From assembly GCA_021816665.1 (NCBI GenBank), contig JAKAXI010000121.1:1-6260 (forward strand): 6,260 nucleotides of DNA, given 5' to 3'. The notes beneath the pieces were generated by a model. That model had not been told where the DNA came from, made no database searches, and saw only the letters and a list, made by a program, of their open reading frames with translations. Position 1 is the first letter of the stretch. Each line of letters begins with the position of its first letter. The DNA is from Bacillota bacterium (GTDB lineage Bacteria; Bacillota; Bacilli; Alicyclobacillales; Alicyclobacillaceae). Position numbers and translations under genes: made by a program. Positions 41 to 3,458 of this stretch are shown one piece after another.

Positions 41-934
41 TCAGTCCCGGTTGAGAAGTACCCCTGACACATCCTCATTACGCAGTTCTCGCCAAGCTTC
101 CGTGACCACACGAAATGCATCGGTTTCACACTGGGGTATGTGGCTCGTACTGTCATCGTTCTTCCACCAACCGAGGAACTCCAAGTTCCCGTCGCCACCT
201 GCGACTGGAGAATAGTCGATACCTCGGCATGTGAGTCCAACCTGTGGTAAAAACGACATCAGCCCGCGAAGGACACTGAGGTGGACAAGCGGATCGCGAA
301 CGATTCCGCCTTTCCCGACATGTTCCCGTCCGGCTTCAAATTGCGGTTTGATGAGGCTAATGATGTCGAAGTCGCCTGACAAACTCGCCCGCAAATTTGG
401 GAGCAGCAAGCGCGTGGAAATAAACGAAACATCCATGACCCCCACATTTGGCGGAGGGTTAAAGGAATCCGGGTCCACGTGGCGAAAGTTTGTCCGCTCC
501 ATGACAACGACGCGCTCATCGTTGCGCAAACGCCAGTCGAGTTGACCGTACCCTACATCAACGGCATACACGTGTGCGGCCCCGTGCCGCAGCGCGCAGT
601 CCGTAAAGCCACCTGTTGAAGCCCCGACATCCAAAACCACTCGTTGTTCGAGTTTGACGCCGAATCGGCTTAAGGCTCGTTCGAGTTTGAGTCCGCCGCG
701 ACTCACAAAGTCGTGGGCTGGGCGAGCGACGTCAAAAACCGTCCCAGGCGTAACAAATGTGCCCGGTTTATCCACGGGCACTCCTTGAATAGACACAATG
801 CCAGCCATGACCGCCCGGCGTGCAGCTTCGCGACTCGGAAACAGCCCCTGTTCGGCCAAGAGGACGTCAACCCGAACCCGTTTCGTTGCTACATTGGATG
901 GCGTTTCTGGACGCTGCTCACTCCGACTGCCCAT
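41..934 (-). CDS. tlyA: TlyA/YqxC family rRNA 2'-O-methyltransferase (S4 + FtsJ-like domains)
   Basis: This is a 297-residue protein with an N-terminal S4 RNA-binding domain (about residues 19-61, KRVRVDVLLAEQGLF onward) and a C-terminal FtsJ/RrmJ-type methyltransferase domain. The SAM-binding motif DVGASTGGFTD lies at about 102-112. The K-D-K-E tetrad of this fold is visible as K83 (GGLKLE), D168 (VMDVSF), K196 (LIKPQFE) and E252 (NLEFLGW). Family members methylate ribose 2'-OH groups on rRNA; mycobacterial TlyA modifies 16S C1409 and 23S C1920 and makes cells sensitive to capreomycin. Old haemolysin annotations of this family are misleading. I chose ATG at 934 because GGGGGG stands 5 nt upstream. 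An in-frame GTG at 961 would add nine residues but has only a weak site. It follows oapA by 37 nt and is presumably co-transcribed. The usual family length is about 270-280, so the protein is complete. Confidence 0.93.
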   Translation of the reverse strand: MGSRSEQRPETPSNVATKRVRVDVLLAEQGLFPSREAARRAVMAGIVSIQGVPVDKPGTFVTPGTVFDVARPAHDFVSRGGLKLERALSRFGVKLEQRVVLDVGASTGGFTDCALRHGAAHVYAVDVGYGQLDWRLRNDERVVVMERTNFRHVDPDSFNPPPNVGVMDVSFISTRLLLPNLRASLSGDFDIISLIKPQFEAGREHVGKGGIVRDPLVHLSVLRGLMSFLPQVGLTCRGIDYSPVAGGDGNLEFLGWWKNDDSTSHIPQCETDAFRVVTEAWRELRNEDVSGVLLNRD

Positions 935-971
935 GTCTGCCCCCCGTTCATGTGTCTGCACAGAAGTCTCA

Positions 972-1541
972 CTAGCGGCGACTCCGACCAGGCGACCGCC
1001 GATAAAACAAAACGCTGTCGGCGATGCGGGCGGCCGTCAAAACAATTGGGGTCGGTACACGAATGGCGAGTGTTTTCCCGATGGCCTTGACAGCAACCGT
1101 CATGGCAGTGGTCAGCGCTGTCAACAAGATGATGACCAACTCTCTATGCCATGACGTTACGTGCATCGTGCTCGACAATTGGGCCCCGACTGCAAGAGCG
1201 CCTGCACCGCTTAGCACCCCAGCAATATCGCCGATCACGTCGCTGCAGATGCTGGATACCCGTTCTGCATTTCGCACGATTGAGATAGCCCGTCTCGCCC
1301 CGAACAGGCGTTTGGAAGCCATGGCGTGGAACGGCGTCTCGGATGCTACAGCCGCTGCCACCCCCAACATGTCGAACAGCGCCCCTACCACCACGATCAC
1401 GAGGATGGCAATGGCGCCAATAAACCAGAGTGCATGATTTAAAAAAACGGTGGATGTGTCAAACACGCCACCGAGAACGAATGATAATCCCGCAACCGTC
1501 AACGCGAACCGGATGGCCCGGCGCCACGGTGTTCTTTTCAT
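972..1541 (-). CDS. oapA: OapA-like OLE-associated membrane protein
   Basis: This 189-residue, strongly hydrophobic protein has about four predicted membrane segments (roughly residues 10-27, 37-66, 103-122 and 134-153). A basic stretch around 77-94 (KRLFGARR...R) lies between the second and third, and the C-terminus is arginine-rich (RRSPGRSRR). The middle contains FDMLGVAAAVASETPFHAMA, a helix break with acidic and small residues that slightly recalls DUF21/CNNM-type membrane domains; that likeness is my impression only. The start ATG at 1541 has GGGAGG 6 nt upstream. The assignment to OapA rests on size, topology and position: OLE RNA genes are characteristically followed at once by oapA, and this gene sits about 20 nt beyond the proposed OLE RNA. 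In Bacillus halodurans OapA binds OLE RNA and anchors the complex to the membrane. Sequence alone would support only a conserved small membrane protein; context raises the confidence. Confidence 0.82.
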   Translation of the reverse strand: MKRTPWRRAIRFALTVAGLSFVLGGVFDTSTVFLNHALWFIGAIAILVIVVVGALFDMLGVAAAVASETPFHAMASKRLFGARRAISIVRNAERVSSICSDVIGDIAGVLSGAGALAVGAQLSSTMHVTSWHRELVIILLTALTTAMTVAVKAIGKTLAIRVPTPIVLTAARIADSVLFYRRSPGRSRR

Positions 1542-1547
1542 TATGTA

Positions 1548-1553
1548 CCTCCC
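1548..1553 (-). promoter_or_regulatory. Ribosome binding site of oapA
   Basis: GGGAGG stands 6 nt before the oapA ATG. It is the tail of CTTGGGAGG, and CTTGGG is a hexamer that also occurs four times inside the OLE RNA. Its complement CCCAAG occurs once inside the RNA (1971-1976), so an alternative pairing could mask this site; that is speculation. Confidence 0.8.
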
Positions 1554-1631
1554 AAGGCTTGTCCAACAGCAAAACCAGGTGGCAGCTCCTTGAGTAAATG
1601 CTGTGGCTTAGGTCCAGTAGGTTTTCCCAAG

Positions 1632-1661
1632 GACGCGCTCGCGCGTCACCGCACGGGCGGT
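1632..1661 (-). other. Two abutting hairpins in the OLE RNA 3' part
   Basis: In transcript order, ACCGC-CCGT-GCGGT (1661-1648) is followed without a gap by GACGCG-CGAG-CGCGTC (1647-1632). These are perfect 5-bp and 6-bp stems with tetraloops, able to stack end to end. No U-run follows, so they are not a terminator. Confidence 0.7.
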
Positions 1662-1761
1662 TTCCCTTTCAGCGTCCCTTGTCAGCGTCGCCGTCTGTCA
1701 GACTGGATTACCACTCAGTCCACACTATAATCCCCAAGGAGCCACGCAATTGGCGAACAGT

Positions 1762-1798
1762 CTAGGCGTTTTCCGCGACAACCGCTGCTGTTTCCTAG
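1762..1798 (-). other. Hairpin within the OLE RNA
   Basis: CTAGG (1798-1794) pairs with CCTAG (1766-1762) and encloses an A-rich internal region around a small GCG...CGC stem. It is moderately convincing, and the inner pairing is short. Confidence 0.45.
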
Positions 1799-1832
1799 CC
1801 TCTTTTGCAGTTTCGATTTCACGCGGCACCAA

Positions 1833-1859
1833 CGGTCCTTCTTGGCCAAGAAGTGACCG
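1833..1859 (-). other. Strong palindromic hairpin within the OLE RNA
   Basis: CTTCTTGGCCAAGAAG is a perfect 16-nt palindrome flanked by CGGTC and GACCG, with a single bulged A on the 5' side. As RNA it folds into 6 bp plus 5 bp capped by a GGCC loop. Because it is self-complementary, it could also pair between two RNA molecules. Confidence 0.7.
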
Positions 1860-1938
1860 CCTGAATCCCGCGATCCCCTCCAAACCACTCAAGGCAGGCT
1901 ACGCTGCACACAGATTGCCTCCGCATGCAGGTTCATAC

Positions 1939-1976
1939 CCCAAGCCATAACTGCGCGAGGCAGCCACGCACTTGGG
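1939..1976 (-). other. Hairpin within the OLE RNA
   Basis: CCCAAG (1976-1971) pairs with CTTGGG (1944-1939), and immediately inside on the 5' strand TGCG can pair with CGCA. The six outer pairs are perfect. CTTGGG recurs elsewhere in the RNA, so alternative pairings are possible. Confidence 0.55.
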
Positions 1977-1983
1977 CCTCCGC

Positions 1984-2030
1984 GGAAGCTGGGTCGGGTT
2001 TCGCATGCCGTTGCGAACCGCCCACCTTCC
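1984..2030 (-). other. Long hairpin in the OLE RNA 5' half
   Basis: The stem consists of GGAAG with CTTCC, TGGG with CCCA, and GGTTCGCA with TGCGAAACC (one bulged A), separated by small internal loops and capped by ACGGCA. With about 17 base pairs it is the strongest local stem in the region. Confidence 0.75.
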
Positions 2031-2100
2031 TTAACTCCCAGCAGAAGCCCAGGGCTGGGCGCCCCAAGCCACCACCAGGAACTTCATCGATGTGCCCTTT

Positions 2101-2120
2101 GGCGGATTTTTAGCCCCGCC
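2101..2120 (-). other. Small hairpin near the OLE RNA 5' end
   Basis: GGCGG (2120-2116) pairs with CCGCC (2105-2101) around a 10-nt loop ending in AAAAAT. It sits just inside the second long-range helix. Confidence 0.55.
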
Positions 2121-2169
2121 TTCAGAAACAGACGGCTGACTAGAATACTGCGCCACCTGTGTCGCGATG

Positions 2170-2206
2170 TGTTCCCATTATAGCACACGAGCGTCAGCGG
2201 CTCGAA
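2170..2206 (-). promoter_or_regulatory. Promoter of the OLE RNA (extended -10)
   Basis: A consensus TATAAT (2182-2177) is preceded by TG one base upstream (2185-2184), giving TGCTATAAT, the extended -10 form read by the housekeeping sigma factor. The best -35 candidate, TTCGAG (2206-2201) with an 18-nt spacer, matches TTGACA poorly, as is common with extended -10 promoters. Transcription should begin near 2168-2171. The spacer region carries the inverted repeat CGAGC-N7-GCTCG (2204-2188), a possible regulator site. The promoter lies about 115 nt after the ispA stop codon, so the RNA need not depend on operon read-through. Confidence 0.78.
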
Positions 2207-2296: not shown

Positions 2297-3202
2297 TCAA
2301 ACGCCGCGATCGATCACGAAGTTTGCCAAGCTGCGCAGCAGAGGAGCGTCGATTTGGACACTGTCCAAGGCTGTCAACGCGTCGGCGTGAGCCACTTGCA
2401 TGAGACGCTTTGTCTCGTCTACGCCGACTAGCTTCGGGTACGTCAGCTTGGACATCCGCTCATCGCTCCCAACCGTCTTTCCGAGTGCAGCAGTATCTCC
2501 GATGACATCAAGCAGGTCATCTGCAATCTGAAAGGCGAGTCCAAGCGATCGACCGAATCTGCAAAGGGCTTCCTCGACGGCTGCCTCTACACCAGCAAAA
2601 ATCGCACCTAGCTGTACGGATGCCTCGATTAGTCGCGCCGTTTTGTGAAGGTGAATAAAACGAAGCGCATCCATTGAGCCTGGCGTACCTTCTGCCTCCA
2701 GGTCCGCCACTTGACCGGCAACCATACCAAAGCAACCGGCTGCACTGGCAAGTACCTGAACCATCCGGAGTTGGCGTTGCGCAGGAATAGCAGCTGGTTT
2801 TGCAAGTTGTTCGAAGGCGTAGGTTAACAGGGCGTCTCCTGCGAGCAGGGCAGTTGCTTCACCAAAAACTCGATGGTTCGTCGGTTGACCACGGCGCAAG
2901 TCGTCGTCATCCATGGTGGGGAGGTCATCGTGAATCAGCGAGTACGTATGGAGAATTTCCAGTGCAACGGCCACGGGTAACAAATCGGCTTCCGACACGC
3001 CAAAACTTCGCCCCACGGCCAGACATAGCACCGGTCGAAGTCGCTTGCCGCCTGCCATCAAGCTGTAATGCATGGAGTCAAATAAGGATTTCGGCTGGTG
3101 CGGGTCAGAGAAAAGCCGCTGGAGTTCTTCTGACACGAGTGCCGCCTGTTCTGCGAGGTACGCAGGCGCCAAGGATAAGGCGCCTTCTTGCGGATCAGTC
3201 AT
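2297..3202 (-). CDS. ispA: Farnesyl diphosphate synthase (short-chain trans-prenyltransferase)
   Basis: IspA condenses DMAPP with two isopentenyl diphosphates to give farnesyl diphosphate, the precursor of undecaprenyl carrier, quinone side chains and, in some Bacillota, hopanoids. The 301-residue protein has all family signatures: GGKRLRP (51-57), the first aspartate-rich motif in LIHDDLPTMDDDDLRRG (D92, D93 and D98-D101), the HKTARLIEAS region (about 186-195), and the second aspartate-rich motif FQIADDLLD (D228, D229, D232). This is the bacterial type II short-chain arrangement, although chain length cannot be fixed from sequence alone. I chose ATG at 3202, with AGGGAG just upstream; an in-frame TTG at 3217 would add five residues. 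The start overlaps the xseB stop by 8 nt, implying translational coupling. dxs, often the next gene, is replaced here by OLE and oapA. No terminator is visible in the 126 nt between its stop codon and the start of the OLE RNA. Confidence 0.95.
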   Translation of the reverse strand: MTDPQEGALSLAPAYLAEQAALVSEELQRLFSDPHQPKSLFDSMHYSLMAGGKRLRPVLCLAVGRSFGVSEADLLPVAVALEILHTYSLIHDDLPTMDDDDLRRGQPTNHRVFGEATALLAGDALLTYAFEQLAKPAAIPAQRQLRMVQVLASAAGCFGMVAGQVADLEAEGTPGSMDALRFIHLHKTARLIEASVQLGAIFAGVEAAVEEALCRFGRSLGLAFQIADDLLDVIGDTAALGKTVGSDERMSKLTYPKLVGVDETKRLMQVAHADALTALDSVQIDAPLLRSLANFVIDRGV

Positions 3203-3458
3203 GGCTCTCCCTCTCAATTAGCCCACTGCCGTCTACGGCCTTCAAAGCGGGGCCATTCTGACCGTCGACAAGCTGCTCAATCTGAAACTCTGCAGCGTCC
3301 AGTTGCTGCCGACAAAATGCCACGAGCTGCATAGACTCCTTGTACCGCTCGATCGAATCGGTCAAACTTAGCTCACCCGATTCCAGTTGTCGGACGGCTT
3401 CTTCAAGTTTTCTCAAGGCCGACTCAAAGGTCAAGTCGGAGTTGTTTCCCTCGCTCAT
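3195..3458 (-). CDS. xseB: Exodeoxyribonuclease VII small subunit
   Basis: This 87-residue helical protein has the family core: FESALRKLEEAVRQLESGEL (about residues 10-29), then LSLTDSIERYKESM and CRQQLDAAEFQIEQL. XseB binds several copies along the coiled-coil arm of XseA to form exonuclease VII, which degrades single-stranded DNA from either end into short acid-soluble pieces. I chose ATG at 3458 because AGGAGG stands 9 nt upstream; a TTG at 3497 would add 13 residues rich in arginine that do not look like the family. The gene starts inside the last 35 nt of xseA and ends inside the start of ispA. This makes a translationally coupled trio, expected for subunits that must be made together. 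The tail after residue 65 (DGQNGPALKAVDGSGLIERE) is slightly longer than in many relatives and is probably disordered. Confidence 0.94.
   Translation of the reverse strand: MSEGNNSDLTFESALRKLEEAVRQLESGELSLTDSIERYKESMQLVAFCRQQLDAAEFQIEQLVDGQNGPALKAVDGSGLIERESHD

Follow-up and report, generated by a model that had tools for sequence, protein, structure and literature searches.

The window analysed here, the whole 6,260-base contig G000:C220 (JAKAXI010000121.1) of a draft genome of a Bacillota bacterium from the Alicyclobacillaceae (GCA_021816665.1, 72.6% complete), carries a complete OLE RNA on its minus strand. We hold with good confidence that positions 2172-1563 encode this RNA of about 610 nt, for which a promoter of its own is likely and which is predicted to form a dimer and to dock on the membrane protein OapA; such a complex would adjust the balance of metal ions and the tolerance of stress. 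Shown directly are what the RNA is, that its conserved positions and helices are intact, that its promoter element is conserved and that the oapA gene is intact. The window taken alone is a further example of an already known class of large, little understood bacterial RNAs, one more standard OLE RNA, and the interest of the analysis lies in its comparative by-products.

An intact and typical OLE RNA

A search with the Rfam OLE covariance model (RF01071), proposed in an earlier note on this DNA, returned a full-length match at ten times the gathering score (520.3 bits against 50), and the window gave no other Rfam match at E<=1. The note had placed a complete OLE RNA between ispA and an oapA-like gene at 1562-2170, correct to within 2 nt. 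This gap measures 755 nt from the ispA open reading frame (ORF) to the start codon of oapA (minus strand, ATG ending at 1541) and holds no assigned gene; mechanically called ORFs of 60-90 amino acids overlap it.

Conservation was read from an alignment of 181 distinct OLE rows, window included, taken from relatives of the window, 80 named OapA loci, a phylum-wide draw and a few single loci. The partial OLE sequences L051 and L054, the hitless L167 and L168, loci without OLE (among them L038, the contig end of genome G022) and identical copies were left out; the deleted form L124 was kept, and dropped for the comparison of helix lengths. Across the phylum, OLE turned up in 284 of 398 tool-drawn genomes; the 30 loci given there and 60 more fetched by place were used, which is no census. 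All 189 positions with at least 97% conservation keep the consensus base in the window copy, in which 146 of the 158 two-sided Rfam pairs are standard. The copy had been described as divergent and GC-rich. Only the second description held, with 59% G+C against 45-61% across 30 loci, the window's own included. The copy is intact and typical, not divergent: it is 98% identical to that of Alicyclobacillus sp. ALC3 (G002; NZ_CP066784.1; L024, L050), the window's closest relative here, whose OapA is 97% identical, and it shares 86% with genome G001 and 83% with the next six rows listed. Its score lies inside the range of 37 OLE hits in the genomes compared (503.5-541.8 bits), and its identity to the other 180 OLE rows has a median of 66% and a minimum of 59%.

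The earlier note had named a decayed protein gene such as dxs as the case that would speak against an OLE RNA in the gap, and this case fails. It can be argued from G001, a genome of the same genus, where dxs lies between oapA and tlyA, a place from which it is missing in the window. However, that place lies beyond oapA as seen from the gap, what the gap holds is OLE (E 1e-150, with 189/189 conserved positions kept), and an intact dxs lies on another contig of the same genome, away from oapA (G000:C189:1491-3317). We therefore regard a decayed gene as practically out of the question. It is also extremely improbable that the copy is a non-functional relic in a lineage no longer needing OLE, a reading for which one can cite the incomplete assembly, and against which stand the intact conserved positions, the presence of the partner genes and the retention of OLE in 37/37 genomes of the family.

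The note had also credited the RNA with its own promoter. An extended -10 element, TGCTATAAT, sits just before the start of the model match, and transcription would start there. The motif TGnTATA(A/C)T is kept in 143 of 178 OLE loci and appears in 1 of 178 simple shuffles (70 nt ending 5 nt before the conserved GCAGUAU; 3 of the 181 rows were unusable). A consensus promoter scan of the window missed this element, and the single promoter-like site that it reported sits inside oapA.

Covarying stems, the L9.3 loop and helix P3

The nested end-to-end pairing expected for OLE is present: RNA positions 14-21 and 590-597 form helix P1, whose pair 15-596 covaries beyond the whole tree-based null. The test used, a simplified, purpose-made and tree-aware one, applied a G-test with average-product correction to 176,715 column pairs and compared them with null columns evolved on a FastTree tree in 12 replicates. 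Every null value was exceeded by 25 pairs, namely 21 Rfam pairs and four others, 15-596 in P1 and 44-383, 45-382 and 46-381 in P3.1; four more non-Rfam pairs at E<1 fall likewise within the P1 or P3/P3.1 stems. P1-P3 are named in the published OLE model, as far as the cited text goes (PMC12265935), and the labels P1 and P3/P3.1 for these positions are our own assignment. Both stems (RNA pairs 14-597 and 37-392 inward) covary yet are missing from the structure line of RF01071, which could be improved by adding them.

Kretsch et al. describe, in the part of their report consulted, an OLE dimer with a palindromic kissing loop L9.3 (PMC12286853). The corresponding loop of the window is UUGGCCAA, and through it the window's OLE is predicted to dimerise. 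GGCC occurs in this loop in the window and in 150/181 rows, another palindrome occurs in 19, and in 12 our script found none, although GGCC can be seen by eye in three of these 12 rows as printed; for random loops of even composition, palindromes are expected in about 28% of cases.

Helix P3 has been proposed by Lyon and Breaker to cross the membrane, for which about 14 pairs were reckoned necessary in the text cited (PMC12265935). We predict 14 pairs in the window, and 13-15 in 138 of 175 parsed rows (6 of the 181 were unparsed). An unusually fixed length of P3 was considered as a sign of membrane crossing and rejected, since the test does not discriminate: the standard deviation of total strand length is 0.94 nt for P3 against 0.17 and 0.38 for two other sequence-variable helices (180 rows). 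As these two are more constant, the length of P3 neither supports nor refutes the membrane-crossing model.

OapA, its partners and the contrast with MpfA

The membrane protein gene that follows OLE had been called oapA-like, and its product is indeed an OapA homologue with a DxxxD motif (D101-V-I-G-D105) and a predicted CNNM-like membrane fold, likely the partner of the OLE RNA. CBS and CorC_HlyC domains found no match in its 189 residues, nor did PDB sequences, by single sequence or by profile. By sequence similarity, OapB and bS21 are encoded elsewhere in the same genome, together with a candidate OapC (L047:2074-2367, minus strand) that matches YbxF structures at E 5e-16 in a comparison made without the paralogue YlxQ. 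The candidate gene sits between an rpoC-like ORF, identified by eye, and rpsL downstream of it, a position that we take to be the usual one of ybxF.

In Halalkalibacterium halodurans, according to the portions of the literature consulted, the OLE ribonucleoprotein (RNP) is membrane-located, and the cells require it in the cold, with alcohol, at high Mg2+ and on poor carbon sources (PMC12054373, PMC10898510). By analogy, the OLE of the window may localise to the membrane and be needed under cold, ethanol, high Mg2+ and poor carbon. In our model the RNA, likely driven by its own promoter, would form a dimer and dock on the product of the neighbouring oapA; as a hypothesis, OapA would supply the CNNM-like membrane domain found also in the Mg2+ exporter MpfA, minus the CBS and CorC parts, and OLE with OapB, OapC and bS21 would stand in for the regulatory CBS/CorC parts that MpfA carries. 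Such a replacement was proposed by the discoverers of OLE in the source cited (PMC11332333).

A comparison of 61 genomes bears on this proposal: 37 of the window's family (Alicyclobacillus among the named records), 18 of a sister family in the same order and six others of the class. OapA and OapB were each searched with one query sequence, so that distant forms could be missed. In the window's family OLE was found in 37/37 genomes, OapA in 37/37, OapB in 34/37 and an MpfA-type CorC_HlyC domain in 3/37. In the sister family OLE, OapA and OapB were found in none and CorC_HlyC in 16 of the 18. The three genomes without an OapB match are 62-91% complete, and the two of the sister family without CorC_HlyC 88% and 73%. 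The OLE tally comprises 36 genomes by model search, one match starting at model position 50, plus G022, for which a loss of OLE was considered and rejected: model positions 528-616 of OLE remain on its contig, which breaks off 104 nt before oapA. Among the six other genomes CorC_HlyC is present in all; OLE and OapA are absent from five, two of which have OapB, while in G060 OLE, OapA, OapB and CorC_HlyC were all found. An apparent OapA in G057, one of the five, is a chance match (E 2e-4, three stops).

A general anticorrelation of OLE and MpfA was already reported in the source cited (PMC11332333). New here is a sharp local case of the replacement, within one order and between two families, which is probably one evolutionary switch; 'OLE RNA' together with 'Alicyclobacillus' was not found in the open-access texts searched. 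The contrast fits, without proving, an OLE RNP that substitutes for the CBS/CorC parts of MpfA. As 34 of the 37 family genomes have OLE and OapA and no CorC_HlyC domain found, an OLE deletion phenotype would likely not be masked by an MpfA-type exporter, and the family could be useful for the open question of OLE function.

The size of the RNA, its intricate fold and its 189 of 610 positions at >=97% conservation resemble large ribozymes. The discoverers of OLE raised the idea, in the text consulted, that it is chiefly a ribozyme, for example a proposed cyclic di-AMP synthase, with OapA only an anchor (PMC11332333). We think this rather unlikely, while giving it some weight: no activity is reported in the OLE literature consulted (PMC11332333), and the reciprocal pattern with MpfA better fits a role linked to transport, as in the regulatory RNP preferred here.

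The coupling of RNA and transporter gene can be judged from 80 named OapA loci, 78 of which have OLE sequence just upstream of oapA (among these, L124 is the deleted form, and a contig end truncates L051 and L054). The two without OLE alongside are both from Pullulanibacillus. An OapA without OLE in this genus was considered and is rejected at the genome level, both genomes carrying OLE elsewhere. P. camelliae has a native-type oapA adjoining OLE and a second, distant oapA. In Pullulanibacillus pueri the distant OapA (L080, NZ_BMFV01000007.1, 2501-3058; related loci L161, L079, L160) is the only one found; its OLE, a full-length match of 500.8 bits, is followed by dxs, and the interval between them holds a short frameshifted remnant of the native oapA. 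The distant OapA groups within a clade of 15 rows (support 96/99), all others of which come from Alicyclobacillaceae or Bacillota without further name, while the two Pullulanibacillus OLE RNAs are 87% alike and share 70-72% with Bacillaceae-type rows against 65-66% with the window. Thus OapA moved without its RNA, and in P. pueri the foreign OapA is the only one found, the native one beside OLE being lost. This species provides a natural test of an OLE RNA working with a foreign OapA encoded elsewhere. Pullulanibacillus together with OLE or OapA was not found among the open-access papers listed. As a separate observation, the ORF directly after the distant oapA of P. pueri looks mpfA-like by eye.

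P. pueri also bears on whether the stretch in the window is a long structured cis leader controlling oapA and not a free RNA, as the end of OLE about 10 nt before the oapA ribosome-binding site and the arrangement in 78/80 loci would allow. There a full-length OLE persists without the oapA that once adjoined it, and for H. halodurans the texts cited report an abundant RNA that acts as an RNP (PMC12265935, PMC9723947). We consider a cis leader quite improbable and retain a free RNA that would dock on OapA. More tentatively, and with doubts that we would rank above our confidence, it is tempting to propose that OLE RNA serves a CNNM metal transporter as its exchangeable regulatory half, given a family contrast almost without overlap and an imported Alicyclobacillaceae OapA taking over in Pullulanibacillus; RNA and transporter would then be separable modules that can be paired anew.

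Gene order, other loci and relation to known systems

On the minus strand the window reads: a thioredoxin-reductase-like oxidoreductase gene whose 5' end lies outside the window, folD, xseA, xseB, ispA, the gap with OLE, the 189-aa membrane protein gene and tlyA. Table 1 collects the features.

Table 1. Coordinates of the OLE RNA, its parts and its neighbours in the window.
Feature	Position	Strand	Evidence
OLE RNA gene, Rfam RF01071, full length, ~610 nt	1563..2172	-	520.3 bits, E 1e-150, model 1-616
Extended -10 element TGCTATAAT, immediately ahead of the OLE model match	2177..2185	-	sequence; promoter activity inferred
Helix P1, 5' strand (RNA 14-21), closes the whole RNA	2152..2159	-	15-596 over null; 14-597 E 0.5, 16-595 E 0.67
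Helix P1, 3' strand (RNA 590-597)	1576..1583	-	covariation
Helices P3/P3.1, 5' strand (RNA 36-49)	2124..2137	-	44-383, 45-382, 46-381 over null; 14 predicted pairs
Helices P3/P3.1, 3' strand (RNA 378-393)	1780..1795	-	covariation, predicted pairs
Loop L9.3 (UUGGCCAA), palindrome; would form the kissing contact of an OLE dimer	1842..1849	-	GGCC in 150/181 rows
ispA, farnesyl diphosphate synthase, upstream neighbour	2297..3217	-	NF045485, 359 bits
oapA, 189-aa CNNM-like membrane protein, likely OLE partner	972..1541	-	
oapA ribosome-binding site GGGAGG, ~10 nt beyond the OLE model end	1548..1553	-	sequence
tlyA-family rRNA methyltransferase gene, downstream neighbour of oapA with no intervening dxs	41..961	-	TIGR00478, 248.7 bits

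By coordinate reading, dxs directly follows oapA in 26 of the 37 family genomes and lies elsewhere in 11, the window's genome and ALC3 included; in ALC3 it is found at C1:1676656-1678482 (1.68 Mb), with OLE at 4.78 Mb. The order oapA-dxs-tlyA was checked directly in G001 and G017 (tlyA by eye). Because four genomes (G007, G008, G035 and G036) carry dxs beside oapA plus a second dxs, the data suggest that the second copy arose first and the operon copy was then lost.

Two further loci are unusual. In Paenibacillus sp. NAIST15-1 (L124, 2082-2452) OLE measures 371 nt, about 295 nt less than in its congeners; it lacks P5 to P8 and the 5' half of P9 (our own stem labels), and oapA and dxs come after it. 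The short form is unique among the 10 of 19 Paenibacillus genomes with OLE, and a real deletion and an assembly fault are both possible. In Pusillibacter faecalis an unannotated full-length OLE (399.8 bits; L037, 4986-5650) lies on pMM59_01 (NZ_AP023421.1), a 504-kb replicon typed as conjugative, followed in turn by the gene of a CNNM-domain protein, dxs, tlyA, the gene of an NAD kinase, and argR. In phages, OLE gave no blastn match and no exact 19-mer in viral contigs, searches that divergent copies would escape.

Compared with ALC3, the window has the same gene order, dxs is absent from both loci and the RNA differs by small substitutions only. With the RF01071 class, whose copies from H. 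halodurans, Clostridium acetobutylicum and C. botulinum have been studied, it shares the full-length match, the conserved nucleotides, P1/P3.1, the L9.3 palindrome, the type of promoter and the adjacent oapA. It differs from the studied copies in that dxs has moved away from the locus and that P6 lacks the CCUCC anti-Shine-Dalgarno mimic. This Shine-Dalgarno/anti-Shine-Dalgarno mimic of H. halodurans type, absent from the 3' strand of P6 in the window, is present there in 30/181 rows and is no defining feature of OLE; mutants M1-M3, in which it is altered, retained bS21 binding in the part of the study consulted (PMC12054373). The MpfA / CorC / CNNM Mg2+ exporters provide the other comparison: MpfA has CBS and CorC_HlyC domains, whereas the OapA of the window is without them, a protein of 189 residues that has the DxxxD motif and is paired with an RNA.
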